Assembly (NCBI RefSeq): GCF_013409005.1
Contig: NZ_JACBZO010000001.1
Location: forward strand, 1,860,001-1,924,000
Reading direction: 5' to 3'
Source of the DNA: Demequina lutea
GTDB taxonomy: Bacteria > Actinomycetota > Actinomycetes > Actinomycetales > Demequinaceae
Length of the DNA: 64,000 nt
Of this stretch, positions 1-18,155 are shown piece after piece; position 1 is the first letter of the stretch; each line of letters starts with the position of its first letter. Both the position numbers and the translations under genes were made by a program. The notes under the pieces are model-generated. The model saw only the letters and a program-made list of their open reading frames with translations, made no database searches and was not told the origin of the DNA.

Positions 1-844
1 ACGTCCGTAGGCGCGACTCGACTCCACCAATTTTGAGCCAGAAGCCAGTTCCCTTGCACACCCGGCTGAGGTAGCCGAGCACGTCTGGTTGATCAGGGAG
101 AGCCACGTACCCAAAGTCATCAACGAATGCCAGTGCCATGCCTCCGTGGGATCGCGCCGCAAGGCTCCTCAGGGTGCCCGAGACGCGAGGCACGATCTGC
201 AACAGACGCTCGATCTTCAAAACTTCGAAATCCGAGTAATGCTCCTGCCGCTCCTGCGATTGCCTCGATGCTCTTGCTACACCCGTGACTCCACCCGGGC
301 CACCTGCTAAGCCAGCTACCCCCGTACCCGACAGGCTCTTCTTCGTGTTCCGCTCCCTGTAGACCAGCATCCTGGTTTTAGCCGGGTCAGTAAGGAGCGT
401 ATTGAGTTCACTGCGCATTTTGGACACAGTGATCGACATCCGCAGGTCGGAAGCGGCTTGCTTCCAGCGTATTTTTGCTTTCGCCGAATCAAGCAAGGCA
501 ATGAGTATTTCGATCAAGACGTCCGGATACTCACGACCTGAGAATTGCTCCATGTCAACCAAAGCTGCAGCGGTCCCGTTAGCCATGAGTTTGTGCCGGA
601 GGACATATAGGTGCGTTGACTTGCCGCTTCCTCGTCGTCCCGTAAGCAACTGGTTTCGCCGGGCACCCAGCTTGTCAAGGATTCCCGGACTGAGCTCAAC
701 AAAACGTTTCGCGACCAACTCCACGGACGTTGGATCGGTACGGGAAGCTTCTGCGAGCGCGCTCCGAGCCCAACCGACATTTCCTACAGTTAACTTACCC
801 ACGATGCTCCCCAAGGTGGCAGTACCTGCCTCGCTAACGAGCAT
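1..844 (-). CDS. P-loop ATPase, C-terminus cut by window edge
   Basis: The minus strand is open from the ATG at 844 to the left edge (about 281 codons, no stop). It has a clear Walker A, GRRGSGKST, near 615-640, followed by alternating strand and helix segments. A Walker B-like hydrophobic stretch ending in AFVDDF lies near 115-140. An upstream in-frame TGA at 953-955 bounds the frame, so the start lies between 844 and 952; ATG 844 has no good ribosome-binding site. Codon use is less GC-biased than in the core genes, as in the NTPase gene at 6140. The family cannot be named from this part. The IS110 fragment upstream may have removed the original 5' end. That it encodes an AAA/STAND-like ATPase is a motif reading; its function is unknown. 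Confidence 0.7.
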   Translation of the reverse strand, partial: MLVSEAGTATLGSIVGKLTVGNVGWARSALAEASRTDPTSVELVAKRFVELSPGILDKLGARRNQLLTGRRGSGKSTHLYVLRHKLMANGTAAALVDMEQFSGREYPDVLIEILIALLDSAKAKIRWKQAASDLRMSITVSKMRSELNTLLTDPAKTRMLVYRERNTKKSLSGTGVAGLAGGPGGVTGVARASRQSQERQEHYSDFEVLKIERLLQIVPRVSGTLRSLAARSHGGMALAFVDDFGYVALPDQPDVLGYLSRVCKGTGFWLKIGGVESRLRT

Positions 845-952
845 ATCGTTGGGCGCGAAAATGGGAGTGTGTGCAGACAAACCAGTATCGGAAATGGTAC
901 GCGACGACAATTCTCCTGAACGCCTTCCCGAAGTCGCTCTCAGGCGCAGCAA

Positions 953-1384
953 TCAGGGTGTGCCTCTGGCCCCGCACCTCACCGGACGGCAAATTGTGCC
1001 CGGCCACTGGGCGATGACCCCCAGCGCGGCCTGGTGAGCATCGATCGGGTCCGACTTCCCTTTGAGTCTGCGATGCTGCCTGTTCGGGCGGGCGATTTCC
1101 ATGACAGGGATTCCTGCCATCGCGAGGGCGCGGGCGATGCCGGCGCCGTAGGAGCCGGTGCCCTCGACACCGACACGCTCGACGGTCTCGTGCTCGCGGA
1201 AGAATGCGACGATCTGGGCGTAACCGGCAGGTGTTGTCGTGAACTCCCGATTCTCGACAGGCCGTCCCGTCCCATCGACGATCGCCACGTGATGAGTGTT
1301 CTTGTGAGTGTCGATCCCGCCAAACACAGGACCAGCCAGGCGCTGGGAGTTGGCTGCTTCGCGCAGCAGTCCCCTATCCTGCAC
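953..1384 (-). pseudogene. IS110-family transposase, N-terminal fragment
   Basis: The fragment starts at GTG 1384 and shows the N-terminal DEDD/RuvC-like domain of IS110 (IS1111/IS116) transposases. Seen here: GGIDTHKNTHHVAIVD, the GVEGTGSYGAGIARAL block, and KGKSDPIDAHQAAL. In this family the first Asp, the Glu and the DPIDA Asp belong to the catalytic centre. Homology stops soon after DPIDAHQAAL (near 1020), and the frame then runs through unrelated sequence to a TGA at 953. The middle region and the C-terminal Transposase_20 domain with its catalytic serine are missing, so it should be inactive. No element ends could be drawn. Confidence 0.85.
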
Positions 1385-2873: not shown

Positions 2874-3374
2874 ATGGACAAGGAGACCACGAGCCTGCGT
2901 CCAGCGGTCGAGCAGGCCATCTTGGCCCTGCGACGGCTGAATAGCGCGCTGATGGTCAGCAACCGTGTGGTCGGGGCTCGGCTCCACATCAACAACGCTG
3001 ATCTCGCTGTACTCGACACACTGCATCAGGACGGCCCTCAGACGCCTACCGAGCTGGCGCACCGCACGCGCACCCATCTCGCGACCATGACCGGGATCCT
3101 GACGCGGTTGGAACGCGATGGGTGGATCGAGCGACGCCTCAACGAGGTCGACCGGCGCTCCGCCAGCATCCACGCGACCGGTGTCGATCGCCTGACTGAT
3201 GCCTACGTGCGAGCCAACGAACGCCTCGCGCGTCTACTGGCCTCGTGGACGCTAGATGAGGTAGCCCTGCTGACGCGCTTCCTCTCGGATGCGAGCGAGA
3301 TCGTCACGACATCCACTGAAGAGACAGACCACGTAAGCTCGTGCCCGCCTCGCGCCTCGGGGGCTAGCGCATGA
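2874..3374 (+). CDS. MarR-family transcriptional regulator
   Basis: 166 aa. The winged helix-turn-helix spans about residues 50-105: TPTELAHRTRTHLATMTGIL (recognition helix region), then LERDGWIERR and the wing with DRRSASI, the usual DRR motif of MarR proteins. ATG 2874 is preceded by GGGGAG six bases upstream. It diverges from the oxidoreductase gene. Its stop overlaps the start of the downstream NAD(P)-binding gene in ATGA (3371-3374), so the two are translationally coupled. The likely role is a ligand- or redox-responsive repressor of the flanking reductase genes; the ligand is unknown. Confidence 0.88.
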   Translation: MDKETTSLRPAVEQAILALRRLNSALMVSNRVVGARLHINNADLAVLDTLHQDGPQTPTELAHRTRTHLATMTGILTRLERDGWIERRLNEVDRRSASIHATGVDRLTDAYVRANERLARLLASWTLDEVALLTRFLSDASEIVTTSTEETDHVSSCPPRASGASA

Positions 3375-4097
3375 ACGACGGGACGCGCACGGTGGCCGTC
3401 TTCGGAGCGAACGGCCCCACCGGCCGCCTCCTCGTCGAACAGCTCCTCAACCGGGGCTGGCGTGTCAGGGCCATTCACTCGACATCCCGAAGCGATCCAG
3501 GTCAGCACACCCTGGCTGGAAGTCGCGCGAGCTGACGCCACCCGTCCTGCCCAGGTTGCCGAGGCGATGCAGGGATGCGATGGCGTGGCGTCCGTACTCG
3601 GGACGAGGTTCAGCAAGCAGCCCATCACGTCCTATTCCGCCTCCGCGCGCGCCATCGTGGAGGCCATGCATGCCCGGGCCATCCGCCGGCTCATCGTGAC
3701 CAGCTCGATGGCCGCGGCCGACTGGCGCGATCCGAAGATGAACTGGCTCGAACGGGCGCTCATCACCCGCATCCTCGACCGCGTCGGGGCCACCCTGTCC
3801 GACGACCTGCGCCGCATGGAACGCATCGTCGCTGGAAGCGGCCTCGACTGGACGATTATGCGACCACTTGGCCTCACGTCTATGGACCCGCCCACGGAAT
3901 ACGCGATAGCCCGCAACCACATTGCCGGCAAGCAGACAGCGCGCCGCGATCTCGCCGCTGCCATCGCCGATCAGCTCGATCGCACGGCCGACCTGCAGGC
4001 CGCGGTCGCCATCGCCACGACGAACAAGACGCAGAGCATCCCAGCGACTATCTGGCGAGAGGGGATCAAGCCCAACCTCTTGGGCCGGAACCAATGA
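3371..4097 (+). pseudogene. NAD(P)H-binding (NmrA-like atypical SDR) gene with a frameshift
   Basis: ATG 3371 overlaps the marR stop. The first frame encodes VAVFGANGPTGRLLVEQLL, a Rossmann GxxGxxG nucleotide-binding motif, and ends at a stop near 3533. The +1 frame continues the same protein from TRHPEA (about 3477) through LIVTSSMAAADW and GLDWTIMRPLGL to the stop at 4095-4097. One extra C near 3476 (ATT-C-ACT) explains the break: removing it joins RVRAI to TRHPEA. About 241 aa if restored. Either a real inactivating mutation or a sequencing error. The family covers NAD(P)H:quinone reductase-like and anchoring proteins, which would suit the neighbouring reductase and MarR. Confidence 0.8.
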
Positions 4098-4140
4098 ACC
4101 GTCGGGCGCGGGCCGACGTTCGCTTCTGCAGGCACGAGCA

Positions 4141-4719
4141 CCCCTTTTGAAGGGGATCCTCTACTGCGCGACCTGCAAGTCCCGGCTCCACCTCGACTTC
4201 GCCAGGAACAAGCAAGGCATCCGCTACGCCCACTATGTCTGCTCCGGCCAGACCAGCAAACGCACCACCTGCACCCGCAAGGCCGTCCCCGTCGGCATCG
4301 CCGAAGAACTCGTCGCCGCCTGCTACGAACGCATCGGGATCAGCGAGCAAACCTTCACCGCGCTCGCAAGACAGGTCAATGCGGCCTTCGCGGAACGCAT
4401 GGCATCCTGCGCCCAAGAACTTGCCGAGCTGACCGACATCGACCGGAAGCTCGAGAGCGACCACGAGCAGGACACGGGCCAGAGGAAGCATCTCGCCAGC
4501 GCCCTGAAGCTGCTCACCTACTGCGCCGCCCCGTACCAGCAGTCCGATGACGAGGCCAAGCGGCTGACGGACCAGGCGTTTTTCGAGAAGATCCACATCG
4601 GCGAGGACGAGCAGGCCGTCGTGGGACGCGCCGCATCGAGAGAACCCCGGGCACGCCTCGGACGCGTCGAAGGGGCGGCCGGAGCACAAAAAAGGGCCGC
4701 CCTTCCGGGCGGCCCTTGA
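4141..4719 (+). pseudogene. Large serine recombinase, C-terminal fragment
   Basis: From about 4144 the frame encodes LLKGILYCATCKSRLHL, then YAHYVCSG and TTCTRKAV. This is the recombinase zinc beta-ribbon (CxxC ... C ... C) of large serine integrases, followed by the coiled-coil C-terminal region to the TGA at 4717. The resolvase catalytic domain with the nucleophilic serine and most of the recombinase domain are missing. Upstream sequence in this frame is the reading-frame shadow of the NAD(P)-binding gene. It is a mobile-element remnant and cannot be active. Confidence 0.8.
4692..4717 (-). terminator. Intrinsic terminator, minus-strand orientation
   Basis: GGGCCGCCC (4694-4702), loop TTCC, GGGCGGCCC (4707-4715), extended by AA/TT. 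A run of six A on the plus-strand 5' side becomes a T-run after the hairpin on the minus strand. No intact minus-strand gene lies directly upstream, so it may be left over from a lost gene. Confidence 0.7.
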
Positions 4720-4837: not shown

Positions 4838-5338
4838 TCTCTGGCGACCGATCAAACTGAAGCGCCCCAGGTCTATCACCAGTCGTTCGACGAGCTGGAC
4901 GAGGACGACCTAGACCGCACCATCAAGACCAACCTCTACGCGATGAACTGGATCACCAAGGACGCGCTCCGCCACCTGGGCCCGGGCTCCACGATCATCA
5001 ACAGCACCTCGGTGCAGGGCTACAACCCGTCGCCGATGATCATCAACTACGCGTCCACCAAGTTCGCCATCAACGGCTTCACCAAGGCCCTCGCGCAGGA
5101 CCTGGCGCCGCGCGGTATCCGCGTCAACGCCGTCGCGCCGGGGCCGGTATGGACGCCGCTGCAGGTGTCCGACGGGCAGCCCACGGAGAAGCTCAACGGC
5201 TTCGGCGACAGCTCGTGGCTGGGCCGCACCAGCCAACCGGTGGAGCAGGCGCCCGCGTATGTGTTCCTCGCGTCGCCCGAATCGAGCTTTGTGGTCGGCG
5301 AGGTCATCAACGTGAATGGCGGGGCGAACGTGCCGTGA
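4838..5338 (+). pseudogene. Short-chain dehydrogenase, N-terminally truncated
   Basis: The frame is open from just after a TGA at about 4835. It encodes [20 protein letters not shown], then [38 protein letters not shown] and [16 protein letters not shown], ending in [11 protein letters not shown] at 5338. These are the Asn, Ser, Tyr-x-x-x-Lys catalytic region and the PG motif of classical SDRs. The cofactor-binding half (TGxxxGIG) is missing, so the protein cannot bind NAD(P) normally. The related full-length proteins are about 280-300 aa (YhdF/YghA type). The first ATG in the remaining frame is 4943. Confidence 0.8.
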
Positions 5339-5377: not shown

Positions 5378-5587
5378 CGAGCTGATCGAGATCCCACGGG
5401 CGCGTTCGATCTCGAACCAGTCGAACACGGAGCCCGCGCGGCCGATCCCAGACACGTGTAGGGCAAGCGCCTCGGTCAAGGTTGACTTGCCAGCATCGAG
5501 GTGAGCGATCCCGGCGATGGAGCGCCGACGCCGGGCCCACTGGCGACGGTCGCGTCGCTGAGCGCCGGGGCGCTCACAGGGCATCAT
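5378..5587 (-). pseudogene. N-terminal fragment of an RF3/EF-G-like translational GTPase
   Basis: From ATGATG at 5587 the minus strand reads [19 protein letters not shown], which contains the G1 P-loop AHxDAGKST of translational GTPases. It continues with [20 protein letters not shown], matching the RF3/TetM-type switch I region that ends in RGISI. Homology ends near residue 70; after that the frame is only the antisense of the SDR fragment. The G2-G5 motifs and all later domains are absent. This is a translocated or decayed gene end. Confidence 0.65.
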
Positions 5588-6139: not shown

Positions 6140-8512
6140 GTGTCCAACAGACTTGCAAGCAGCGTCTTCTTCGCATATTCATCTCACTCGCCGCTGATCG
6201 CCGAATCCGTACGGGCGAGCGCGAACATATTGCGCGCCAACATGGAATCCGCGGTCACCTGGGAGGACCTTCCCGTCCCAGGTCGTCACCTAGTGGCCGA
6301 AATCTGCGCGGCTATCGACGGTGTAGACGTGCTGATCGCGGAGGTAAGTTCTCTCAATGAAAACGTGTTGTTCGAGCTTGGCTACGCCATTGGTCGGGGG
6401 AAACACACGGTGCCGGCGCTGGACGAGACCCTCACAACCGCCACACGAAGTTGGAAATCCCTTGGCCTGCTGTCACAGATGGGCCGGATCGACTACAGCG
6501 GGGATGCTTCAAAACTCGCGGCGTTGTTCCTTGCAAGCCGTCCTCGTGTGGGAGAGCCAACCCACCTAGATCGCCTGCTCGCTGACGCAAAGACCAAGAA
6601 GCCGAACTCCCTGTTTGCTCCTCAACCAGCGGTGCCAACGACTGCGTTCTCAAACCTGAAGAAGATGCTGGATCGCGACAGAGGGTGGACCTTGCGCGGC
6701 AGCAGCGAGGACTTGGTTCTGGCCCCTTTGAAGTTCTACGTGGAGGAGATATACCGCTCAACAGCAGCCATTATTCCGTTCCTAGATCCGGACCGAAACC
6801 GCGCGGAAGAACACAACTCCCGAGCAAGTTTGCTCGCTGGTATCGCGCACGGCCTGGACGTTCCGCTCCTGCTCGTGGCGGAGCCGACCTACCAAACTCC
6901 GCTTGACTATTCAGACATGCTGCTGAACTTCCAATCATCGAGTGATCTCCAAGGCCGAGTCAGAATCTGGCTCGACGAACGCCATCTACAAGCCACCACC
7001 ACGGGGAGACGCGCCGGGCGTCTCGCGCTGCAAGTCGAACTCCCGATTCGCTCCTTTGGGCAATACGTCGCAGAGTACGAACGTGACTCTTTGGCCGACT
7101 ATTTTGTGCCAACGAGTGAGTACGAGACCATGCTGCGTGGCGACGCCAAGATCTTTGTCGGACGTAAAGGCACTGGCAAGACCGCCACGATGCAACGACT
7201 CGTCGACGACCTCCGCTCTTCAGGCAAGAACCTTGTGGTCTCCATAAAGCCCGCGAGTTACGAGATAAGTGGCTTGGTCGAAGCGATCGGCAGCGTGGAC
7301 TCGGAAGCAGTGACGGACTACATGTTGCTCAGTCTCTGGAGCTACCTCGTCTACACGGAGATCGCGATGCAAATTGTGCGGCACGCTGACTCACGCCCCG
7401 CCGGTTGGCCGCTGGATGAGGACATTGAAAGGGTTCGCAAAGAACTCGAGAATCTCGGCGTCGAAGTCGACGCAGATTTGAGTTCCAGGCTTGAGCACGC
7501 GGTGAACGACTTCATCACTCCGCAAAAAACGCATACCCGGCGACCCGACGACAGAGAAGCCGTCGCCAAGGCATTCAAGGTGGAACACGTCCGCCGACTC
7601 GTTGCCGCCATGCAACCAAACCTCGCGTCCTATGATCGCGTAGCCGTACTCTTCGACAACCTCGACAAAGCCTGGCAACGCGGCATCAACTACGCCGCGA
7701 TGTCAAGGTTTCTCTTGGCGTTGCTCGTCGCGAGCGGAAAGATCGAGCGCGAACTCAGGCGGTCCAGCGACCACCCGGCGGGCCCAGTCTTCACCTTGGC
7801 AGTTTTTCTTCGCACCGACATTTTTGACATCGTGACAAGATTCGCGCGTGAACCCGACAAGATCGAAACACTCGAAGTCCGTTGGAGCGACGAGGAGCTC
7901 CTGCTTCGTGTACTCGAAGAACGGTACGGCGCGCTCCGCGACGACGATCACTCCGGCGTCGAAGCGGACATGTGGGCGGAGATCTTCGAAACAGAGGTTC
8001 GAAGCACCCAGACTCGCGACTACATACCTTGGCGCGTGCTCCCTCGGCCTCGCGACTTGGTCTATTTCGCAAACGCGGCACTTACTTCGGCAATCAACAA
8101 CAAACACGACTTGGTCAGAGAGACGGATCTCATCGCGGCCGAACAACCGTATTCTGAGTTTGTAGTCGAGGCGCTCCTCGTCGAAGGTCAAGCTGAAGAG
8201 TTTGATCTCGAAGCGGTAATCTACGAGTTCGTCGGGAAGCCCGCGACTTTAGACCAAACTGAGATAATCGCGTTACTCTCGCCCCACGGAGATGCGAACG
8301 ATATTCGAGATTTCCTTGTGCGAAGCACCTTTCTGCAAATCGAAATGAGCGAGGGCACCTTCGAGCACGTCGACGGCGCAGCGCGCGCTCGTCGGCGCCT
8401 CAAGATAGCGGAACAGGGCGCCGCGAACGACGGGCGACCTCTGCACTTCCGAGTACACCCTGCGTACCGACCCTTCCTGGAAATTCCAGACACCGATCTG
8501 CACATCAAGTGA
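6140..8512 (+). CDS. NDT/TIR-like domain fused to Sll1717-type P-loop NTPase; putative defence protein
   Basis: 790 aa from GTG 6140 (AAGG directly upstream; no in-frame ATG before residue 36). Residues 5-90 resemble a nucleoside 2-deoxyribosyltransferase/TIR-like fold: SSVFFAYSSHS, then DVLIAEVSSLNENVLFELGY, in which Glu79 sits at the catalytic-Glu position of that superfamily. Residues 190-300 look like a second, degenerate copy (RASLLAGIAHGLDVPLLLVA). Residues 330-350 carry Walker A GRKGTGKTA. VAVLFDNLDKAW (501-512) is Walker B-like, and FLRTDIFD (557-564) is sensor-like. The C-terminal ~200 residues are unassigned. Proteins of this layout are annotated as Sll1717-family P-loop ATPases. 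Nucleotide or NAD cleavage gated by the NTPase, as in abortive-infection proteins, is inference. It stands alone among mobile-DNA debris. Confidence 0.85.
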   Translation: MSNRLASSVFFAYSSHSPLIAESVRASANILRANMESAVTWEDLPVPGRHLVAEICAAIDGVDVLIAEVSSLNENVLFELGYAIGRGKHTVPALDETLTTATRSWKSLGLLSQMGRIDYSGDASKLAALFLASRPRVGEPTHLDRLLADAKTKKPNSLFAPQPAVPTTAFSNLKKMLDRDRGWTLRGSSEDLVLAPLKFYVEEIYRSTAAIIPFLDPDRNRAEEHNSRASLLAGIAHGLDVPLLLVAEPTYQTPLDYSDMLLNFQSSSDLQGRVRIWLDERHLQATTTGRRAGRLALQVELPIRSFGQYVAEYERDSLADYFVPTSEYETMLRGDAKIFVGRKGTGKTATMQRLVDDLRSSGKNLVVSIKPASYEISGLVEAIGSVDSEAVTDYMLLSLWSYLVYTEIAMQIVRHADSRPAGWPLDEDIERVRKELENLGVEVDADLSSRLEHAVNDFITPQKTHTRRPDDREAVAKAFKVEHVRRLVAAMQPNLASYDRVAVLFDNLDKAWQRGINYAAMSRFLLALLVASGKIERELRRSSDHPAGPVFTLAVFLRTDIFDIVTRFAREPDKIETLEVRWSDEELLLRVLEERYGALRDDDHSGVEADMWAEIFETEVRSTQTRDYIPWRVLPRPRDLVYFANAALTSAINNKHDLVRETDLIAAEQPYSEFVVEALLVEGQAEEFDLEAVIYEFVGKPATLDQTEIIALLSPHGDANDIRDFLVRSTFLQIEMSEGTFEHVDGAARARRRLKIAEQGAANDGRPLHFRVHPAYRPFLEIPDTDLHIK

Positions 8513-8612: not shown

Positions 8613-8822
8613 CTACCTGGGCACCGCACCCAACTGACCCGTAGCCGCCGCGATCACGGCCTCCCGTACACCCAGCACCTCATCGGCACTTAGCGTGTGG
8701 TCCGCCGCGCGCATGCGCACGTTGACGGCCATCGACTTGTGACCGGCCTCGACCTGGGCGCCCTCGTAGACGTCGAATACTCGCGCGTCCGCGACGAGGT
8801 CTCCCCGGCCTCGCGCACGCAT
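8613..8822 (-). pseudogene. Second copy of the 3' end of pheT
   Basis: Reading from 8822 down to a TAG at 8613-8615, this encodes ARVFDVYEGAQVEAGHKSMA, then VNVRMRAADHTLSADEV and GQLGAVPR, the anticodon-binding-like C-terminus of the PheRS beta chain. My alignment of 8621-8818 with 14445-14643 in the intact pheT gives about 13 mismatches and one 1-bp gap in about 200 bp. Identity stops abruptly at about 8819. Both copies end in a stop at the same place. It may mark an integration or recombination boundary at the pheT 3' end. Confidence 0.9.
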
Positions 8823-8864: not shown

Positions 8865-8878
8865 GTGACAGATGTCAC
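8865..8878. promoter_or_regulatory. Inverted repeat upstream of the ABC exporter
   Basis: GTGACA and TGTCAC flank a 2-bp spacer, 60 bp before the exporter start. It could be the site for the response regulator encoded at 11930; this is unproven. Confidence 0.35.
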
Positions 8879-8937
8879 CGCCACATCGTGACGTCCAAAC
8901 CAGAGCCCTCGACGCCGCGGGCACCACCATGGGAGTC

Positions 8938-9939
8938 ATGATCACAACCAGCACGATGCCTCACACCCCCGGCACCTCCCCACACGGCACGCCCCTAGCG
9001 GTCGACCTCACCGCCGTGACCAAGGACTTCGGCTCCGTCCGCGCCGTGCGCGGAGTCGACCTCCACATCGAGCAGGGCGAGGTAGTCGCATTCCTCGGCC
9101 CCAACGGAGCGGGAAAGACCACCACCATCGACATGGTGCTCGGCCTGTCCCAGCCAACATCGGGCACCGTCCGGGTGCTCGGCCACGAGCCGCGCCACGC
9201 CATCGCGCGCGGCCTGGTCTCCGCCGTGATGCAGACCGGCGGCCTGCTCAAGGACCTCACCGTGCGCGACACGCTGCGCTACACCGCGAGCCTCTTCGCC
9301 GACACTGCCCCCGTGGACGAGGTCCTTGCCACCGCCGGCGTGGCATCGATCGCCGACCGCAAAGTCGGCAAGTGCTCTGGCGGCGAGCAACAGCGGCTGC
9401 GCTTCGCAATGGCCCTGCTTTCCGACCCCGCGCTGCTGATCCTCGACGAACCCACCACCGGGATGGACGTCGAGGGCCGCCGCGGCTTCTGGGAGGCGAT
9501 CCGCAAGGACGCCGAGCGCGGCCGCACAGTCCTGTTCGCCACCCACTACCTCGAGGAGGCCGACAGGTACGCCGACCGGGTGGTGCTGCTCAGCCACGGC
9601 CGCATCGTCGCTGACGGCACGGGCAGCGAGATCAAGGCGCTCACCTCCGGGCGCACCGTGCGGGCCACCCTGCCCAACGCCGACGAGGCCGCCCTGCGCG
9701 CCCTGCCCGGCGTCGACAGCGTCGAGTTTCAGTCCGAACAGGTCTACCTGCGCACCAAGGACAGCGACGCGGTCGCGCGCTGGCTGCTCACCGAGACCGA
9801 CGCACGCGACCTCGAGATCACGTCGAGCGGCCTCGAGGACGCTTTCATCAGCCTGACGTCGGGCGACGACGACGCCACCACCAGCGCCGACGCTGGCAAC
9901 ACCAAACCCACCACCCCCCAGGAAGGAGCACGGCGATGA
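8938..9939 (+). CDS. ABC exporter ATP-binding protein (CcmA/BcrA type)
   Basis: 333 aa from ATG 8938 (GGGAG just upstream; an earlier in-frame ATG exists at 8872, inside the palindrome region). Walker A is GPNGAGKTT and Walker B is LLILDEPTTGMD, followed by an H-loop in FATHYLEEAD. The signature reads GKCSGGEQQR, with Cys in place of the usual Leu. After the ATPase core, about 80 residues form the C-terminal domain usual in ABC-2 drug or lantibiotic exporters. The stop overlaps the permease start (ATGA), and a sensor kinase/response regulator pair follows. Together they look like a self-regulated exporter for an antimicrobial or lipid-active compound; the substrate is unknown. Confidence 0.9.
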   Translation: MITTSTMPHTPGTSPHGTPLAVDLTAVTKDFGSVRAVRGVDLHIEQGEVVAFLGPNGAGKTTTIDMVLGLSQPTSGTVRVLGHEPRHAIARGLVSAVMQTGGLLKDLTVRDTLRYTASLFADTAPVDEVLATAGVASIADRKVGKCSGGEQQRLRFAMALLSDPALLILDEPTTGMDVEGRRGFWEAIRKDAERGRTVLFATHYLEEADRYADRVVLLSHGRIVADGTGSEIKALTSGRTVRATLPNADEAALRALPGVDSVEFQSEQVYLRTKDSDAVARWLLTETDARDLEITSSGLEDAFISLTSGDDDATTSADAGNTKPTTPQEGARR

Positions 9940-10733
9940 CCACCACCACCACCGCGGGCATCAACACCGACCTGTCCACCCGCCGCGTTCCGCCGATGGG
10001 CGGCTTCAACCTCACCGTGCTGTCGATCGAACTCAAGAGGATGCTCAGCAACAAGCGCACGATGGTCTTCACGCTGATTTTCCCGGCGGCGATGTTCTTC
10101 GCGTTCGGCACCGGCACGGGCACCGCCGACCGCGTCGGCTCCGGCAACGTGTCCGCCTACATCCTGGTGTCGATGGCGCTGTACGGCGCGGCCCTCACCG
10201 CGGCCGCCGGGGGTGCGATGGTCGCGCTCGAGCGGTCGCTCGGCTGGTCCCGGCAACTGCGGCTCACGCCACTCAACCCCGTGGCCTACATCCTCATCAA
10301 GGCGCTCGTTGCGCTCTCCATGGGCGCCATCGCCATCGTTGTCGTGAACATCGCCGGGCTAGCCCAGGGCAAGCCCGACATGCCCGCGAGCACGTGGATA
10401 GCGTCGGCCGTTGTCACTCTCCTGTGCACCCTCACGTTCGCGGCGCTTGGAGTGTTCGTGGGCTACATCGTGCCCGGAGAGAACGCGATGCAGATCCTCG
10501 GCCCCGGCCTAGCCCTGCTGTCCTTCCTCGGCGGGCTGTTCATCCCGCTCACCAAGGGCAACGCGATCTGGCACGTGGCGGTCTTCACGCCGATGTACGG
10601 CGTCGCCGAGGTGGCCAGGGCTCCCCTGACCCACGAACTTCCCTGGTACGCCCTCGTCAACGCCGTCGCGTGGTTCGTGGTCTTCGTCGCAGCCGCCGCC
10701 TGGAGAATGTCCAAGGACACGTCCCGTGTGTGA
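9936..10733 (+). CDS. ABC-2 type transporter permease
   Basis: 265 aa with about six hydrophobic segments. An N-terminal cytoplasmic stretch leads into TMVFTLIFPAAMFFAFGTG, then further membrane spans (MALYGAALTAAAGGAMVAL; LGPGLALLSFLGGLFIPL). This is the size and pattern of ABC2_membrane permeases paired with CcmA-type ATPases. Its start overlaps the ATPase stop by 4 bp. It would form the membrane pore as a homodimer with the upstream ATPase. A two-component system follows 24 bp downstream. Confidence 0.9.
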   Translation: MTTTTTAGINTDLSTRRVPPMGGFNLTVLSIELKRMLSNKRTMVFTLIFPAAMFFAFGTGTGTADRVGSGNVSAYILVSMALYGAALTAAAGGAMVALERSLGWSRQLRLTPLNPVAYILIKALVALSMGAIAIVVVNIAGLAQGKPDMPASTWIASAVVTLLCTLTFAALGVFVGYIVPGENAMQILGPGLALLSFLGGLFIPLTKGNAIWHVAVFTPMYGVAEVARAPLTHELPWYALVNAVAWFVVFVAAAAWRMSKDTSRV

Positions 10734-10757
10734 CATGTGCCTGCTAGCGTGACGCGC

Positions 10758-11933
10758 ATGGCCGACCTCGCCGCACCCTCCCGGGATTTCTGGCTACCGA
10801 ACCGGATGAGCGGCACCGGACGGTTCGGGATTTTGTGGGTCACGCTGTGGGCGGTGTTTCTGGTGGAGCCGCTATCGGCCGCATGGGACCGGCGAGCGAC
10901 CGCTCAGGGCTTGGCTGGCATCGCCGTCACCGTGGTCTTCGCAGTCTGGTACGTCGGCTTCTTCGTGGTGGTGCGCCGCCGGAGGATGGAGAACGGCTGG
11001 CTCCCTGAACGTCCCGTCGCGGCAGCCGTGGGTGTCAGCGTCGCGTTGCTGCTCGCGGTCGCCGATAGCGTGTTGCTCGGCCAGATCGGTGACACCACGG
11101 CGGTCTACGTCAGCGTGATGGTGGTCATGACGACTCGCGGGCGACGCTCGCTCGTGCTGGGCTCGCTGCATGCTGGACTGTGGTACCTCACCGGCTTCCT
11201 CGTGCCGGGCTGGCACCCGGACTACGGCCTCCTGCTCGGCATGCTTGCAGCGATGCTCGCGGTCCTCGGTTTCCAACAGACGATGATCGGCAACGTCCGG
11301 CTGCGCGAGGCGCAGCAGGAGAACCAGCGGCTGGCGGTCTCCGAGGAGCGCAACCGCTTCGCCCGCGACCTGCACGACATCCTGGGTCATTCGCTGACCG
11401 TGATCACGGTCAAGGCCGAGCTGGCCGCCCGGCTGATCGACGTCGACCCTGAGCGGGCCAAGGCGGAGGTACTCGACCTCGAGTGGCTGTCCCGAGACGC
11501 TCTGGCCGACGTGCGCCGCGCCGTGGCCGGCTACCGCGAACTGACCCTGCCGGGCGAGCTGTCCCACGCGCGCACCGCCCTCGCCGCCGCAGAGATCGCC
11601 GCCGACCTGCCGAACTCGACCGATGCCGTTGAAGGCGACCTTCGCGAGCTGTTCGCGTGGACGGTGCGGGAGGGCGTCACCAACGTCGTCAGGCACTCCG
11701 GCGCGTCCAACTGCACGGTGCGGCTGACGGCGACGAGCGCCGAGGTGCGTGACGACGGCCGCGGACCTGGCACGATGCACGGCGAGCCCGGGCATGGCCT
11801 GCTCGGCCTGCGTGAGCGGGCTGCGGCTTTCGGTGCGAACGTCACCACGTCCGCCGTCGAGCCGCACGGCTTCTCGCTCACGGTCGCCGTTCCCGCAGAG
11901 CCCGCTGAGCGCACTGGCGAGGCGCAGCGATGA
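10758..11933 (+). CDS. Sensor histidine kinase, NarL/DesK-type (HisKA_3)
   Basis: 391 aa from ATG 10758; GTG codons at 10737 and 10749 are alternative starts in the same frame. About five N-terminal membrane segments precede the HisKA_3 dimerisation domain with H-box RFARDLHDILGHSLT (phospho-acceptor His). A HATPase_c domain follows, with N-box REGVTNVVRHSGASNCTVRL, G1 DDGRGPG and G2 HGLLGLRERA. There is little extracytoplasmic sequence, so it probably senses a membrane-borne cue, as kinases linked to ABC exporters do. It overlaps the response regulator by 4 bp (ATGA at 11930). Confidence 0.92.
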   Translation: MADLAAPSRDFWLPNRMSGTGRFGILWVTLWAVFLVEPLSAAWDRRATAQGLAGIAVTVVFAVWYVGFFVVVRRRRMENGWLPERPVAAAVGVSVALLLAVADSVLLGQIGDTTAVYVSVMVVMTTRGRRSLVLGSLHAGLWYLTGFLVPGWHPDYGLLLGMLAAMLAVLGFQQTMIGNVRLREAQQENQRLAVSEERNRFARDLHDILGHSLTVITVKAELAARLIDVDPERAKAEVLDLEWLSRDALADVRRAVAGYRELTLPGELSHARTALAAAEIAADLPNSTDAVEGDLRELFAWTVREGVTNVVRHSGASNCTVRLTATSAEVRDDGRGPGTMHGEPGHGLLGLRERAAAFGANVTTSAVEPHGFSLTVAVPAEPAERTGEAQR

Positions 11934-12538
11934 CCATACGACTGCTGATTGCCGACGACCAGGCGCTCGTGCGCGGCGCGCTGGCGGCCCTGCTCAACCT
12001 CGAATCCGACCTCGAGGTGGTGGTCGAGGTGGGCGCCGGGGACGAGGTGCTGCCCGCCGCGCTGGAGCATCGGCCGGACGTATGCCTGTTGGACGTGGAG
12101 ATGCCCGGGCTGGACGGTATCGCGGCCGCCGCCCTGCTGCGCGAACGGCTGCCAAGCACCCACGTCCTCATGGTCACGACGTTCGGGCGGCCCGGCTACC
12201 TGCGCCGCGCACTGCAGGCCGGCGCGGCCGGCTTTGTGGTCAAGGACACCCCTGCAGCCAAGCTCGCCGATGCCGTGCGCCGGGTACACCAGGGCCTGCG
12301 GGTGGTCGACCCTGCGCTCGCCACGGACAGCCTGTTCAGCGGCGAGTCCCCGCTCACGCCGCGCGAGACGGAGGTGCTGCGGGCGGCCAGGGACGGCTCG
12401 TCGGTCGCCGCGATCGCGCGCCGGTTGGTCTTGTCGGAGGGCACTGTGCGTAACCACCTGTCTGCGGCGATCGGCAAGACCGACGCGGCCAACCGCGCCG
12501 AGGCGGTGCTGACCGCCGAGAACAACGGCTGGTTGTAG
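11930..12538 (+). CDS. LuxR/NarL-family response regulator
   Basis: 202 aa. The receiver domain has the acidic pair DD (residues 9-10), the phospho-acceptor Asp55 in CLLDVEMPG, the Thr in MVTTFGRPGY and the Lys in VVKDTP. The C-terminal GerE/LuxR HTH contains LTPRETEVLRAARDG and LVLSEGTVRNHLSAAIGKT. It is translationally coupled to the kinase and forms its cognate pair, probably controlling the exporter upstream. It ends 11 bp before the convergent DedA gene. Confidence 0.93.
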   Translation: MTIRLLIADDQALVRGALAALLNLESDLEVVVEVGAGDEVLPAALEHRPDVCLLDVEMPGLDGIAAAALLRERLPSTHVLMVTTFGRPGYLRRALQAGAAGFVVKDTPAAKLADAVRRVHQGLRVVDPALATDSLFSGESPLTPRETEVLRAARDGSSVAAIARRLVLSEGTVRNHLSAAIGKTDAANRAEAVLTAENNGWL

Positions 12539-12549
12539 GGCGGGGCTGG

Positions 12550-13161
12550 CTACTCGGAGACTTCGTTGCGGCGCTTGCGAATCTGCCAGACCGCCACGAC
12601 CACCACGACGATGCCCGCGATGACCAGCGCGCCAACGCGGCCCATCGTCTTCTCTACCTGGGCGTAGGAGCGGCCGGCCAGGTATCCGGCGGTCACCACG
12701 ACGGCGCCCCAGACGATGCCGCCTGTCGCATTGAAGGCGAGGAACTTGGGGTAGGGCATCCGCACGGTGCCGGCCAGGGCGGGCATAACGGCCCGGAAAA
12801 AGGCGGTCCAGCGGCCCAGTAAGACCGCAACGCCGCCGCGGCGGGCCAGGAAATCCTGGGCATTGTCGAGGCTCTTGCGTCGTCGGTCCATAATCTTCAG
12901 GGACAGAATCCGCGGCCCGATGTGGCGACCGACCTCGTAGCCGACGCTGTCGCCGACGATGGCGGCGACGATCACCACGGCGATCACGGCCGCTAGGGGC
13001 ACGTGTCCGAAGCTGGCCGCGACTCCACCGAGAATTGCTGCGGTCTCACCTGGCACGACGAAGCCAACAAAGAGGGCGTCCTCGACGAAGACGACGAGCC
13101 CGACCAGTCCGAGCACGGTCCAGGTGGGGGCGCTGAGGATGTGGTCGATGATGGCGCTCAC
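12550..13161 (-). CDS. DedA-family membrane protein
   Basis: 203 aa from GTG 13161, with AGGCGG upstream. The open frame extends to 13233, but the extra N-terminus is low-complexity and not family-like. Family signatures seen: FVEDALFVGFVVPGE (the E...PGE re-entrant region), GDSVGYEVGRHIG, and GRWTAFFRAVMPALAGTVRM, matching the G-R-F-x-P-x-x-R-x-x-x-P-x-x-A-G motif with changes. These proteins act in the cytoplasmic membrane in phospholipid or undecaprenyl-phosphate translocation. The C-terminal tail is basic. It converges with the response regulator gene. Confidence 0.88.
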   Translation of the reverse strand: MSAIIDHILSAPTWTVLGLVGLVVFVEDALFVGFVVPGETAAILGGVAASFGHVPLAAVIAVVIVAAIVGDSVGYEVGRHIGPRILSLKIMDRRRKSLDNAQDFLARRGGVAVLLGRWTAFFRAVMPALAGTVRMPYPKFLAFNATGGIVWGAVVVTAGYLAGRSYAQVEKTMGRVGALVIAGIVVVVVAVWQIRKRRNEVSE

Positions 13162-13453
13162 GGTAGGGCCGCCTGAAACTCGCCTAATGCTCGGCGGAGG
13201 GCGTCCATGGGAGGTTCCTGTCGGGTCGGGCACGGGCGAGGCTCCGTGCGGTGGGACCGGCAGCGGCCCAAGACGGCAGCCGATGACTGGGGTGTTGACG
13301 CATCAAGTCCGACCGGATCGGTCGTACTACCCGCAGTTTAGTCGACAGCGAATCCTGCGTGCCGTCATCGAGAGCCACGCCAATAGACAAGAATCGGGGG
13401 GTGAGAGTTGAGATATTGCAGTGCATAGGCGCCGGCTGCGCACTGATGGCGCG

Positions 13454-14377
13454 ATGCCTACCCTGACCGTCTGGACGCTCCTGAGCTCTTGGGTGTTCGA
13501 CCCGCTGGGCGTCTCGCTTGCGACGGTTCTTGCATGCCTGTACGGCGCCCTCCTCTGGCAAGCACATCGCCGTGGGATCAGTTGGTCCAAGGCCCGCAGC
13601 ACGGCGTTCTTCGTCATGGGCCCCGCCACCTTGGTCTTCGCCACGTGTGGTGGGCTCGCGGCGTACCGCTCGACGTTGTTCTGGGTAGCGGCGGTCCAAG
13701 CGGGGGTGCTTTCGGCGGTGGTGCCGATGGGCCTCGCGCTCGGGGACCCCCTCGCACTGGCTCGCGCCGCGTGGGGCGAGGTGGGGGCCGGGCGGCTGCT
13801 TCGCTTGTTGCGGTCGCCGGTAGCGCGCGTGCTGATGTTCCCGTTGGTGAGCTCGCTCCTGGCGATGGTTTCGCTCATCGTCGTCTTCCTCACGCGGTAT
13901 TTCGCTTTGTCCACGTCCAGCATGCCCGTGCGAGAACTGCTGTACGCGCAATTGCTGGTCACCGGTTCGCTGGTCGTTCTGCCGATCCTTGGCGAGGAGA
14001 TGTTGCCGGCATGGTGCACGCATCCAGTTCGGGTCTTGTTTGCGTTCGTCGATGGCCTGCTCGACGCGGTCCCCGGCGTCTTCATCTTTTTTGCGCCGAC
14101 GCTCTTGACCCGAGGTGTTCCGGGGCTGACCGACCGGAGCTGGGGGCCCACGCCTGCGTGGGACCAGCAGCTAGGCGGGGGAGCCTTGATCACGGTCACG
14201 GAACTCGTCGGGCTACCGGTGCTCGCGGCGATCATCACGGCCTGGGTCCGCGCGGACAAGGCGGAGGCGCGTGCAGTGGACGCCGCGCTCGACGCGCGCG
14301 ATGCGGCATCCGGCGATTCCGAGCTCACCGCGCCCTGGTGGGCATCCGATCCCCGCTACAGCGACCGAAGCGACTAA
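13454..14377 (+). CDS. CtaG-like multi-pass membrane protein (cytochrome c oxidase assembly family)
   Basis: 307 aa from ATG 13454. Seven or more hydrophobic segments run in the order typical of caa3_CtaG: WVFDPLGVSLATVLACLYGA at the N-terminus, RGISWSKARS, the LFWVAAVQAGVL helix, then VVPMGLALGDPL. In canonical CtaG proteins the helix after LF carries two His in an H-M-V-Q-H pattern; here both positions are Ala (A79 and A83), so copper or haem-related ligand function may be lost. No cytochrome oxidase genes lie nearby. The assignment rests on pattern similarity. Confidence 0.65.
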   Translation: MPTLTVWTLLSSWVFDPLGVSLATVLACLYGALLWQAHRRGISWSKARSTAFFVMGPATLVFATCGGLAAYRSTLFWVAAVQAGVLSAVVPMGLALGDPLALARAAWGEVGAGRLLRLLRSPVARVLMFPLVSSLLAMVSLIVVFLTRYFALSTSSMPVRELLYAQLLVTGSLVVLPILGEEMLPAWCTHPVRVLFAFVDGLLDAVPGVFIFFAPTLLTRGVPGLTDRSWGPTPAWDQQLGGGALITVTELVGLPVLAAIITAWVRADKAEARAVDAALDARDAASGDSELTAPWWASDPRYSDRSD

Positions 14378-14436: not shown

Positions 14437-17058
14437 TTACCGAAGCACCGCGCCCAACTGACCCGTCGCCGCCGCGATCACGGCCTCGCGCACACCGAGC
14501 ACCTCGTCCGCACTGAGCGTGTGGTCCGCCGCGCGCATGCGCACGTTGACGGCCATCGACTTGTGACCGGCCTCGACCTGGGCTCCCTCGTAGACGTCGA
14601 ACACTCGCGCGTCCTCCACCAGGTCTCCCCCGGCCTCGCGCACCGCGGCGACGAGCGCGCCGGCGGTCACCGAAGCGGGGACCACGAACGCGAAGTCCTC
14701 CTTCGCAACCACCTGCTGGCTCACGGCCTCGGCGGCAACGAGCGCGCCCTCGGTGAACGAGATGATCGGGTCCAGCAGCACCTGGAACGCGATCGACCTG
14801 GCCGGGAAGCCCAGCGTCTCGCAGACCTTGGGGTGCAACTCGCCCGCGTGCGCCGCCGGTGTACCGTTTGGCAGCGTGAAGACCGCCGCGCGGCCTGGGT
14901 GCCAGGGGGCGTAGGCGTCGGCGCGGGGCGTCAAGACCACCCCAGCGGCGTGCGCCACGACCTCGACCAGCGCCAAGGCATCGGACCACTCCCACGGCTG
15001 TGCTGCGCCGTTTGCAAGCGCGCGGTTCCAGCCGGCATATATCCGCGAACCCGTCAGCACGCCAGCGACCATGCGCAACTGCTCGGGCAGCGCGGCGTCG
15101 AGCTCCTTGAGCTGAACGTCCGTCACCGAGCCATCGAGCGGCAACCGCGCCGCCACGCCCGTGCCGGTGTCCAGGTACCCGCGGCCCACCTCGAACACGG
15201 CCACGTCTTGCGAGCCGCGACCAAGGTTGACCTTGACCGCGTCGAACAGCGTGAACAGCACGCGCGGGCGCATGACCGGCTTCTCCGCGGCGAGCGGGTT
15301 AGCCAAACGCACCAGCTTGCGGCGCTTGTCGTCGGCGGGAACCAGGCACTCGTCGAGCCGCTCAACAGACATGAACGGGTACGTGAGCACCTCGGTGAGA
15401 CCGGCATCGGCCAGGGCCCTCGCCACCGACCGACGCACGCGCTGGCCGTGAGTCAGCCCGCGCCCTGGGGGCGCCACGGGCAGGATCGACGGCATCTCGG
15501 CGTAGCCGCGCAGGCGCGCGACCTCCTCGACGAGGGTGACCGGAATGTCCAGGTCGGGGCGCCACGTGGGCGGCACCACCGCGAGCTGCTCGCCCAGGCG
15601 AGTCACGTGGCAGCCGATGGCCTCAAGCGACGCGACCACCTCGTCGGCCGGGAAGTCCATGCCGACGATGCGCGTGGGGAAGTCGATCTCCATCGTGACG
15701 GGGGCCAGCTCGGTCGCGTGCCCGGCGTCCGTGAAGACCTCGTCGATCACTCCGCCGCCGAACTCCTGCATGAGCGCAAGTGCCCGCTGCACCGCCGCCG
15801 GCGGAAGGGCAGTGTCCACGCCGCGCTCGAAGCGACGCGACGCCTCCGAACCCAGCTTGTGGCGCCTGGCCGTGCGCGCGATCGTGATGGGGTCAAAATG
15901 CGCGGCCTCGATGAGGATGTCCGTGGTCGCGTCCGAGATCTCGGTATCCTGCCCGCCCATCACACCCGCCATGCCGATGGCGCGGTTGCCGTGGCCTCCG
16001 GCGCCTCCTGAGACGGCGGCGGAGTCGGTGATGAGCAGGTCCTCGGGCGAGAGGTCGCGCGTGGCGTCGTCGAGCGTGACGAGCTTTTCCCCGGGGGCGG
16101 CCCGACGCACGACGATCGGCGCGGTGAGCTTGCCCAGGTCGTAGGCGTGCAGGGGCTGGCCCAGCTCGAGCATCACGTAGTTGGTGACGTCCACCGCGAG
16201 CGAGATCGAGCGCATGCCCGACTGCTCCAGCCTGCGCCTCATCCACGTGGGGCTCGCGGCGGCGGGGTTGAAGCCGCGCAAGGCGCGCGCCACGAAGCGG
16301 TCGCAGCCAACGGTGCCGCGGATGGGCGCCTGGTCCTCGACCACGACCTCGAAACCTGCGGCCGATGCCGCGCCCATCACCGGGATGCCGGCCGGGTCCG
16401 TGAACTCCGCGCCGGTCGAGTGCGAGTACTCGCGCGCCACTCCCCTGATCGAGAAGCAATAGCCGCGGTCGGGCGTGACGGTGATCTCGACCGTCTGCTC
16501 GCCCAACCCGAGAAGCTCAATCGCGTCGTCCCCAGGCGTCAACTCGACGTCCGTACCCACGAGTCCGGCCGAACCGTCGGCGTGGCGCAACACGATGATG
16601 CCAGTGTGGTCCTCGCCAAGGCCCAACTCGCGAGCGGAGCAGATCATGCCATCAGACCAGTGACCGTACGTCTTGCGGCCCGCAATGGGGAACGGGCCAG
16701 GCAGCACGCCGCCTGGAAGCACGACGACGACGTAGTCGCCCTCAACAAAGTTGTGGGCACCACAGACGATGCCGCGACTCGTCGGGTAGTCAACTCCATC
16801 GTCGGGCGCATGACCAGGCCCGGCAGCGTCGTTCAGCCCGCCGACGTCGACGCGGCAGTAGTTGATCGTCTTGCCGTTCTTCTGCGCTTCCTTGACGAGC
16901 GAGAGGACGCGGCCGACGACGAGCGGGCCCTCGACTCCCCCGCCGGAGATGCCCTCCTCTTCGAGGCCCACCTTGACGAGGGCGGCGGCCACCTCTTCGG
17001 GGGTCGCGGAACCGAGGGCGACGGACTCGCCCAGCCATGACATCGGAATCTTAGGCAT
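14437..17058 (-). CDS. pheT: Phenylalanyl-tRNA synthetase beta subunit
   Basis: 873 aa from ATG 17058, which overlaps the pheS stop in TAATG. The order is that of bacterial PheT: N-terminal PKIPMSWLGE; tRNA-binding EMAP/OB domain (VGRVLSLVKEAQKNGKTINY); B3/4 editing domain and B5 domain (RFERGVDTALPP); the catalytic-like core (LTYPFMSVERLDE); and the C-terminal FDX-ACB domain (ARVFDVYEGAQVEAGHKSMA). It forms the alpha2-beta2 enzyme with PheS. The extreme 3' end is duplicated at 8613-8822. Confidence 0.97.
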   Translation of the reverse strand: MPKIPMSWLGESVALGSATPEEVAAALVKVGLEEEGISGGGVEGPLVVGRVLSLVKEAQKNGKTINYCRVDVGGLNDAAGPGHAPDDGVDYPTSRGIVCGAHNFVEGDYVVVVLPGGVLPGPFPIAGRKTYGHWSDGMICSARELGLGEDHTGIIVLRHADGSAGLVGTDVELTPGDDAIELLGLGEQTVEITVTPDRGYCFSIRGVAREYSHSTGAEFTDPAGIPVMGAASAAGFEVVVEDQAPIRGTVGCDRFVARALRGFNPAAASPTWMRRRLEQSGMRSISLAVDVTNYVMLELGQPLHAYDLGKLTAPIVVRRAAPGEKLVTLDDATRDLSPEDLLITDSAAVSGGAGGHGNRAIGMAGVMGGQDTEISDATTDILIEAAHFDPITIARTARRHKLGSEASRRFERGVDTALPPAAVQRALALMQEFGGGVIDEVFTDAGHATELAPVTMEIDFPTRIVGMDFPADEVVASLEAIGCHVTRLGEQLAVVPPTWRPDLDIPVTLVEEVARLRGYAEMPSILPVAPPGRGLTHGQRVRRSVARALADAGLTEVLTYPFMSVERLDECLVPADDKRRKLVRLANPLAAEKPVMRPRVLFTLFDAVKVNLGRGSQDVAVFEVGRGYLDTGTGVAARLPLDGSVTDVQLKELDAALPEQLRMVAGVLTGSRIYAGWNRALANGAAQPWEWSDALALVEVVAHAAGVVLTPRADAYAPWHPGRAAVFTLPNGTPAAHAGELHPKVCETLGFPARSIAFQVLLDPIISFTEGALVAAEAVSQQVVAKEDFAFVVPASVTAGALVAAVREAGGDLVEDARVFDVYEGAQVEAGHKSMAVNVRMRAADHTLSADEVLGVREAVIAAATGQLGAVLR

Positions 17059-18155
17059 TACAGTTCCACTCCAAACTGGGCTGAGAACCGCACATCGCCC
17101 TCGACCATGTCGCGCATGTCCTTGACGCCGTGGCGGAACATGAGCGTGCGCTCGATGCCCATGCCAAAGGCGAACGCCGTGTAGACCTCGGGGTCGATGC
17201 CCGCGGCGCGCAGCACGTTCGGATGCGTCATGCCGCAGCCGCCCCACTCGATCCAGCCCGTGCCTCGACACGTGCGGCACTCCGTGTCGGAGCCGCCGCA
17301 GACGAAGCAGCGCAGGTCGGGTTCGAGCGACGGCTCGGTGAACGGGAAGTACGACGGGCGGAAGCGCATCTCGGCATCGGGCCCGAACATCGCCTTCGCG
17401 AGGTGCTCGAGCGTGCCCTTGAGGTGCGCGAGCGTCAGGCCCTTGTCGATCGCCAGGCCCTCGATCTGGTGGAACACGGGCGTGTGGGTCGCGTCGAGCT
17501 CATCGGTGCGGAACGTCTTCCCGGGGCAGATGACGTAGATGCCGCGGCCCTCGGTGAGGAGGGCGTCGCGGCGCTCGAGCGCTGCGCGTGCCTGGACCGG
17601 GGACGTGTGGGTGCGGAGGACGACGCTGGGCTCGTCGCCCTCGCGCGGCTCCACGAAGAAGGTGTCCTGCATCGCGCGGGCCGGGTGGTCGGGGTCGAAG
17701 TTGAGGGCGTCGAAGTTGAACCACTCGGCCTCGATCTCGGGGCCCTCGGCCACCTCCCAGCCCATGCCGACGAAGATGTCCTCCATGAGCTCCTGCATCG
17801 TCTCCAGGGGGTGCCTGGCGCCGACGGGACCTCTTGTTACCGGAAGCGTGACGTCGACGGACTCCTCGGCCAGCACGCGCGCGTCACGCTCGGCCTCGAG
17901 GGCGTCGGTGCGTGCGGCGAGGGCCTTGCCGATGCTCGCCCTGGCCTTGCCGAGCAGCTGCCCGGCCGTGGCCTTGTCGGGACCGGCGAGCGCGCCGATG
18001 CCCCTGTTGGCAAGCGTCAGCGCGCCCTTGTCGCCCGTGTGGGCAAGGCGCGCCTCCTTGAGCTCGTCCAGGGTGGTGGCGGCGTCGAACGCCTTGGTGG
18101 CGGCGGAGACGGCCGCTTCGATGCCGGCGGCATCGAGCGGAGAAAGATCAGACAT
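17058..18155 (-). CDS. pheS: Phenylalanyl-tRNA synthetase alpha subunit
   Basis: 365 aa. An N-terminal coiled-coil arm (residues 1-90) leads to the class II core: motif 1 region [19 protein letters not shown], motif 2 TSPVQAR ... [20 protein letters not shown], and motif 3 [18 protein letters not shown]. The catalytic subunit charges tRNA-Phe. It is translationally coupled to pheT. No phenylalanine attenuator or T-box was identified upstream; the 492-bp gap upstream instead carries a 42-bp triplicate. Confidence 0.97.

Follow-up and report, generated by a model that had tools for sequence, protein, structure and literature searches.

The gene at positions 6140–8512 of the window (the whole stretch of Demequina lutea DNA that was analysed, 64,000 nucleotides) encodes a 790-aa protein that is probably a single-gene abortive-infection protein, directed against phages or plasmids, and part of the cargo of a defence hotspot that the chromosome has at the pheT 3′ end. 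The chain combines an N-terminal domain of the nucleoside deoxyribosyltransferase (NDT)/TIR fold, a second copy of this fold and an Sll1717-family ATPase; given its place at a site where related species have other anti-phage genes, the unit is probably a single-gene anti-phage system known elsewhere only as separate pieces. Coordinates of all features are given in Table 1.

Table 1 Features of the 790-aa gene and its surroundings (positions in the window)
Feature	Position	Strand	Description or basis
Gene	6140..8512	+	790 aa, GTG start; GC 57.8% vs 66.3% for the window
Domain 1, residues 5–135, NDT/DNPH1/TIR-fold candidate glycohydrolase	6152..6544	+	Structure prediction, fold match, profile search
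Codon of Glu79, catalytic-type glutamate	6374..6376	+	Invariant in 22/22 homologues; aligns with DNPH1 nucleophile Glu
Domain 2, residues 150–282, fold as in domain 1, every homologue lacking the Glu (putative pseudo-enzyme)	6587..6985	+	Alignment and fold match
Residues 306–780, Sll1717-family ORC/CDC6–STAND-type AAA+ ATPase with C-terminal winged-helix-like part	7055..8479	+	NCBIfam and fold match
Walker A, GRKGTGKTA (341–349)	7160..7186	+	Motif
Walker B region, VLFDNLD (503–509)	7646..7666	+	Motif
Duplicated pheT 3′ end, insertion-site boundary	8621..8818	-	93% identical to 14445–14643, ends in pheT stop
Segment between true pheT and pheT 3′ copy: ABC transporter, two-component system, VTT/DedA-like protein, membrane protein	8872..14377	.	
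pheT (listed ORF over-extended at 5′ end); 3′ end is the hotspot	14437..17280	-	ORF list and comparison
Start of ORC-CDC6-like P-loop ATPase	1..952	-	582-aa ORF running to −796, outside the window
IS110 piece	953–1384		Fragment
Recombinase piece	within 3922–4716		Zn-ribbon only

Gene and reading frame

A single ORF was recovered at exactly 6140..8512 (+), in agreement with the intact 790-aa gene of the first-pass annotation, and its motifs were located at residues 73–81 (NENVLFELG, with Glu79), 341–349 (GRKGTGKTA) and 505–509 (FDNLD). The gene is present once in the genome (3.10 Mb, two contigs). It was aligned end to end with 15 full-length homologues of 50–23% identity; 22 sequences were compared in total. 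A chance ORF is excluded by the full-length homologues and by a score of 264.5 bits (cut-off 75) against NF047389 (ATPase_Sll1717) over model positions 1–454 of 454, which also bears out the earlier assignment to the Sll1717-type P-loop NTPases. The intactness of the frame had been taken as a sign of selection; the frame is intact, whereas the argument for selection is weak, as a recent arrival would likewise be intact and there are no close relatives for dN/dS, the nearest homologue being 50% identical.

N-terminal NDT/TIR-fold domains

Structure prediction with AlphaFold2 for residues 1–282 (pLDDT 89, pTM 0.90) returned the NDT/TIR fold that had been proposed for the N-terminus. Using VIA-align, residues 4–140 were matched to the SARM1 TIR domain (Z 10.8; superposition at 2.6 Å over 122 residues), DNPH1 (10.7), the CMP N-glycosidase MilB (10.5) and NDT (10.1), the NDT/DNPH1 fold being found at Z 10–11 with rmsd 2.2–3.0 over 112–130 residues; Foldseek E-values were modest on their own (DNPH1 8e-3, probability 1.00).

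At the level of the single protein, the Pfam scan gave sub-threshold values for Nuc_deoxyrib_tr (0.087) and CAP12-PCTIR_TIR (0.14), as did the PADLOC scan for the TIR model (0.0045), and no PADLOC or Pfam model reached its cut-off in these scans (PF05014 13.4 vs a gathering score of 28.8; CAP12-PCTIR 12.6 vs 24.7 bits). A phmmer search of the single sequence against the PDB gave no relevant match. When the whole family was scanned, PF05014 (NDT) matched 16/16 full-length members (best 1.5e-6; best score among homologues 28.8) and the PADLOC TIR model 11/16, and the domain 1 profile retrieved human and rat DNPH1 (E 1.1e-6), CMP N-glycosidase (0.0045) and NDTs (0.005) from the PDB.

The degenerate second copy of the fold was also recovered. 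Domains 1 and 2 were aligned in register by hhalign (P 8e-4), and the residue opposite Glu79 is L, V, F, M, A or I, never Glu, in all homologues; Asn226, Gly234 and Asp256 are invariant in domain 2. Residues 153–282 were matched by VIA-align to DNPH1 (11.3), RPS4 TIR (10.3) and TIR-STING, the domain 2 profile having relatives by fold only and none by sequence. On these alignments domain 2 is read as a conserved pseudo-enzyme, which makes a structural or regulatory role probable.

Active site and predicted substrate

Glu79 is invariant in 22/22 sequences, together with Trp41, Gly48 and Asn75, and stands opposite the Glu of YELG in DNPH1, as its earlier description as a catalytic-type residue would have it. 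The combination looked for in TIR NADases, a TIR fold with a catalytic Glu, is thus present (SARM1 TIR Z 10.8; Glu79 invariant). The second catalytic Asp of DNPH1/NDT (Asp80 in DNPH1) is absent from the query: its column, which was located via the DNPH1 chains D80A and D80N, with Ala and Asn against Asp in another DNPH1 chain, holds Ile55 in the domain 1 profile alignment, and Ile is found at this position in at least 90% of the homologues. To our knowledge, TIR NADases have no Asp at the position of DNPH1 Asp80. NAD+ is therefore the more likely predicted substrate, rather than nucleotides, both because of this replacement and in view of the NAD+ hydrolysis described for NDT- and DUF4062-type effectors of other defence systems. 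The choice is weak, since in sequence domain 1 resembles nucleotide hydrolases more than TIR.

The same defence logic could also operate with domain 1 cutting deoxynucleotides in the manner of DNPH1/NDT, or bases in DNA, instead of NAD+, so that phage replication would be starved or DNA damaged. The closest solved sequence relatives, DNPH1 and CMP N-glycosidase, the PF05014 match in every full-length member, and the proposal that NDTs fused to Abi proteins act on DNA (PMC3710099) all point this way, but the Ile at the Asp80 position and the NADase activity of other NDT-like defence effectors (PMC13174449; for Retron-Eco1, a paper cited in PMC12548924) make cleavage of nucleotides or DNA rather unlikely.

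ATPase half

The full-length model (pLDDT 82.5, pTM 0.58) was usable for the domain folds, not for their mutual placement. For residues 300–782, the nearest solved folds were the archaeal STAND-type ATPases 2fna (Z 13.2) and 2qen and the CDC6/ORC structures 1fnn and 1w5t (both 12.9); further matches comprised CED-4 (4m9s, 11.7), TnsC and plant NLRs, with Z 13.2 to 11 across the set. The modelled fold places the ATPase half in the ORC/CDC6–STAND branch of AAA+, for which the joint label is kept. GK(T/S)A and DN(L/I)D are retained in 22/22 sequences. The same region was weakly matched to DS41_1_antiphage (NF053860; 8.6e-11), at 41.5 bits against an equivalog cut-off of 370.

On the E. coli plasmid p5Y (L033:1154-3253), an Sll1717-family ATPase adjoining tet(M) was observed with a C-terminal stretch that is PD-(D/E)XK-like by eye, which suggests that the Sll1717 ATPase swaps effectors.

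Distribution

The architecture is kept across actinobacteria, cyanobacteria, spirochaetes and proteobacteria, and its genes reside on chromosomes and plasmids as well as within phage contigs. Of 395 genomes sampled across the class, about seven have full-length copies, and Agromyces, Curtobacterium and Georgenia hold full-length homologues of 50–44% identity. Plasmid homologues occur in Rhodococcus, Leptolyngbya, Leptospira, Ochrobactrum, Paraburkholderia, Mesorhizobium and Ensifer. Six IMG/VR contigs carry near-full-length homologues; one homologue (L045) is flanked by phage connector and tail genes, a second contig (L042) also holds a phage primase and a terminase, and a third (L046) a tail gene. 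No match was obtained by tblastn against phage records, nor by megablast of the own locus against plasmids. Phage-contig, plasmid and chromosomal copies are intermixed in the tree, and copies of different families are joined (L034/L035, L038/L039), a topology that would be expected from horizontal spread.

Own locus

Everything to the left of the gene had been described as broken. This holds for the pieces of IS110, recombinase, SDR and prfC, but not for the ORFs 1763–2761 and 2874–3374 and the ORC-like ATPase, which are open over their full length; the ATPase straddling the start of the window (−796 to 952) is homologous to pheT-site ATPases of other species (25–26% identity, E 1e-18). Several partial gene duplications lie within this one island: the 3′ half of the SDR gene (4943–5338) has a near-identical intact copy 10 kb leftward, at about −4958..−4062, and prfC (release factor 3) is represented by pieces at about 5470–5587 (-) and about −1100, with intact prfC at −18.5 kb. 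Further left, a HepT-like and MntA-like nucleotidyltransferase pair, a lone second nucleotidyltransferase and an XRE/HigB-like pair were seen at −11.0..−10.1 kb and −4.0..−2.6 kb; a gene with a macro domain lies at −6.9 kb. The 68-kb second contig encodes a 326-aa protein (L093:9999-10976 +, on G000:C2) with an NDT-like motif (DLSDANPNVYYELAIAHAFAKPV), otherwise unrelated, which is a possible second NDT-type effector. No intact integrase was recognised among the listed ORFs. A tRNA attachment site was considered and rejected, as the window contains no tRNA.

To the right, the 3′ end of the gene was newly found to lie 109 bp from the copy of the pheT 3′ end; the GC content of pheT is 69.6%. A clean empty site was not found among the ten congener loci compared, the DNA left of pheT having nothing in common with them beyond the ends of pheT and some distant or paralogous patches.

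The pheT 3′ end as a defence hotspot

Also new is the finding that, in this genus, the pheT 3′ end serves as an insertion site of variable content that is rich in defence genes. In the pheT-site loci of congeners (L083–L092, L108–L127), the DNA directly after pheT varies from genome to genome, and the pheT 3′ end is duplicated in at least two species, the present one and G759. Pfam matches downstream of pheT comprised an AIPR gene at 1.3 kb, after the duplicated 3′ end (G759); SIR2 (SIR2_2) at 2.1 kb, adjoining a HerA-like gene recognised by eye (G765); an N6-methylase (HsdM, N6_Mtase) at 2.1 kb and SIR2 at 4.7 kb (G761); an N6-methylase at 0.3 kb (G766); GmrSD_N at 1.6 kb (G767); two C5-methylases at 0.3 and 1.4 kb (G754); and two reverse transcriptases at 0.7 and 2.2 kb (G760). 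Altogether, one or more genes for AIPR, SIR2, type I R-M, C5-methylase, GmrSD, tandem RTs or ORC-like ATPases lie no further than 5 kb from the pheT 3′ end in ten congeners; empty-looking sites are also present (e.g. G778, G776).

Ten family matches were seen against 0.21 expected from genome-wide density (six families, 30 loci × 6 kb), an excess that is real and whose size is inflated because the families were mostly picked after by-eye reading of the loci. A less biased check was provided by the Sll1717 model, which had been chosen for the query protein: four of its six matches outside the own genome are ORC-like ATPases 1.0–2.4 kb from the pheT 3′ end (G758, G759:C11, G764, G782), two of which had been noticed by eye beforehand.

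Some pheT sites hold further candidates. ORC-CDC6-like ATPases of about 530–580 aa recur (L115, L122, L113 and −796..952 of the window), preceded by a HEPN-like gene (by eye) in L115 and L122, and this family is a candidate second system. Two adjacent reverse-transcriptase genes directly after pheT (L119, G760:C8:48961-50899) are a possible DRT-type (two-RT) defence system. After pheT in L085:3202-8150 (-), a row of genes for an N6-methylase and, recognised by eye, a GHKL ATPase, a small protein of receiver type and an MBL-fold protein has the appearance of a defence operon.

The hotspot makes a defence role of the 790-aa protein more probable and supports this interpretation independently. 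Counted against it is the position of the gene, which lies beyond the ABC transporter/two-component segment and adjoins decayed DNA, making its expression less certain. The protein might instead be a passenger that serves its mobile element (in plasmid or prophage maintenance, or in exclusion) without acting directly against phages in this host. Many homologues do reside on plasmids or in phage contigs, and the own copy lies among mobile-gene fragments; its chromosomal position at a site that repeatedly acquired defence genes and the conserved catalytic residues nevertheless render such a role improbable.

Homologue neighbourhoods

No partner gene is conserved across the eight annotated homologue neighbourhoods, and the protein is therefore taken as a single-gene unit, as the first-pass annotation had proposed; the refuting case it had named, homologues in housekeeping settings, did not arise, since they were found in plasmid, phage and defence contexts. 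Individual neighbours, given as examples rather than as an enrichment, included a TIR gene, a DUF4062 gene, a ThsB-like TIR, a Dodola-like AAA+, MazF/PemK and AbiEi toxin–antitoxin genes, a HEPN/Toprim-associated gene and TIGR02391. The homologue on a Rhodococcus plasmid (L024:9980-12373) has an in-frame stop and is flanked by a TIR gene and a DUF4062 gene.

TIR-fold enzymes can generate signals, and domain 1 might accordingly make or bind a signalling nucleotide (Thoeris-like cADPR, or as a sensor), with the ATPase as effector. The homologue next to the ThsB-like TIR gene and one with TIR and DUF4062 genes as neighbours would fit such a division of labour, but a conserved signal-receiving partner is missing from the eight neighbourhoods and we regard it as very unlikely. 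A housekeeping protein of nucleotide metabolism or regulation, as the generally metabolic NDT/DNPH1 relatives might suggest, is hardly credible for a gene that is absent from 36/36 congeners searched, patchy across phyla, lower in GC than its surroundings (57.8 vs 66.3%) and fused to an ORC/STAND-type ATPase.

Proposed mode of action

We infer an antiphage function for the 790-aa protein, and for its trigger, oligomerisation, substrate and the arrest of the cell we infer the following course. The ATPase half would keep the protein off until an invasion signal appears, possibly a nucleic-acid structure in view of the ORC/CDC6 and winged-helix kinship. On this signal, the ATPase would bind or exchange nucleotide and oligomerise, whereby the N-terminal NDT/TIR-fold domains would be brought together. 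Domain 1, with Glu79 as nucleophile, would then cut an N-glycosidic bond, most likely in NAD+ and less likely in (deoxy)nucleotides, and the cell would be stopped before phage release. Domain 2 probably provides the contact surface of a dimer or filament, or else makes the active site complete.

In its fullest form the proposal is more tentative: the protein may represent an unnamed, widespread single-gene immune system, NLR-like without a repeat sensor, in which an ORC/CDC6–STAND ATPase itself reads invasion and activates an NDT/TIR NADase made up of an active and a pseudo copy in tandem. Phages and plasmids would have spread this system, and the pheT 3′ hotspot of an actinobacterial genus would be a store of it. 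If true, this would be a compact single-gene newcomer among the TIR/NDT-NADase defence proteins, its effector being intermediate in type between NDT and TIR. It would also concern an ATPase family for whose only tested relative, DS-41, no worked-out mechanism was found in the literature consulted. In that case the protein would allow a direct test of which substrate, NAD+ or nucleotides, is used by NDT-type effectors in defence, and the pheT hotspot is a place to seek further systems in the genus.

Comparison with known systems

The tandem NDT/pseudo-NDT plus Sll1717 ATPase unit matched no PADLOC model and no named system that we found. By its ATPase half the protein is a member of the Sll1717-family P-loop ATPases (NF047389), whose other members seen are mostly ATPase-only proteins of about 480–510 aa, whereas NDT domains are added here; the 700-aa Sll1717 protein of the E. 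coli plasmid has a C-terminal extension instead, PD-(D/E)XK-like by eye only. DS-41/DS41_1 (NF053860), an experimentally protective antiphage protein from DefensePredictor (PMC13092281), is a distantly related ATPase, and its model of 448 positions leaves no room for NDT domains.

The hotspot has a striking parallel in core defence hotspot 1 of P. aeruginosa, which is marked by pheS/pheT/ihfA/tRNA-Pro (PMC10250203). That site also lies beside pheT, but belongs to another phylum and is tRNA-flanked, whereas the present window lacks tRNAs and it is the 3′ end of pheT that occurs in two copies.

On the effector side, Retron-Eco1 is reported, in a paper cited in PMC12548924, to have an NDT-like effector that hydrolyses NAD+ in phage defence; the likeness is in the effector, the 790-aa protein having no reverse transcriptase or ncRNA and joining its ATPase to the effector in one chain. 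DUF4062 acts in defence as an NADase of TIR-like type (PMC13174449), and the Swarozyc/DUF4062 proteins share an NDT/TIR-intermediate sequence and a catalytic Glu with the present protein, their architectures including NACHT ATPases; the Pfam scan of the 790-aa protein to E 1 gave no DUF4062 match. The TIR-Orc/CDC6 fusions that computational work placed in mobile neighbourhoods (PMC10853773) likewise join a TIR-like NADase-type domain to an ORC/CDC6 ATPase, but are reported alongside partner genes, whereas the 790-aa protein has an NDT-type effector with a tandem pseudo-copy and no partner. Each piece thus has a known defence counterpart, in the retron NDT effectors, the DUF4062 Swarozyc proteins, the TIR-Orc/CDC6 fusions and DS-41.
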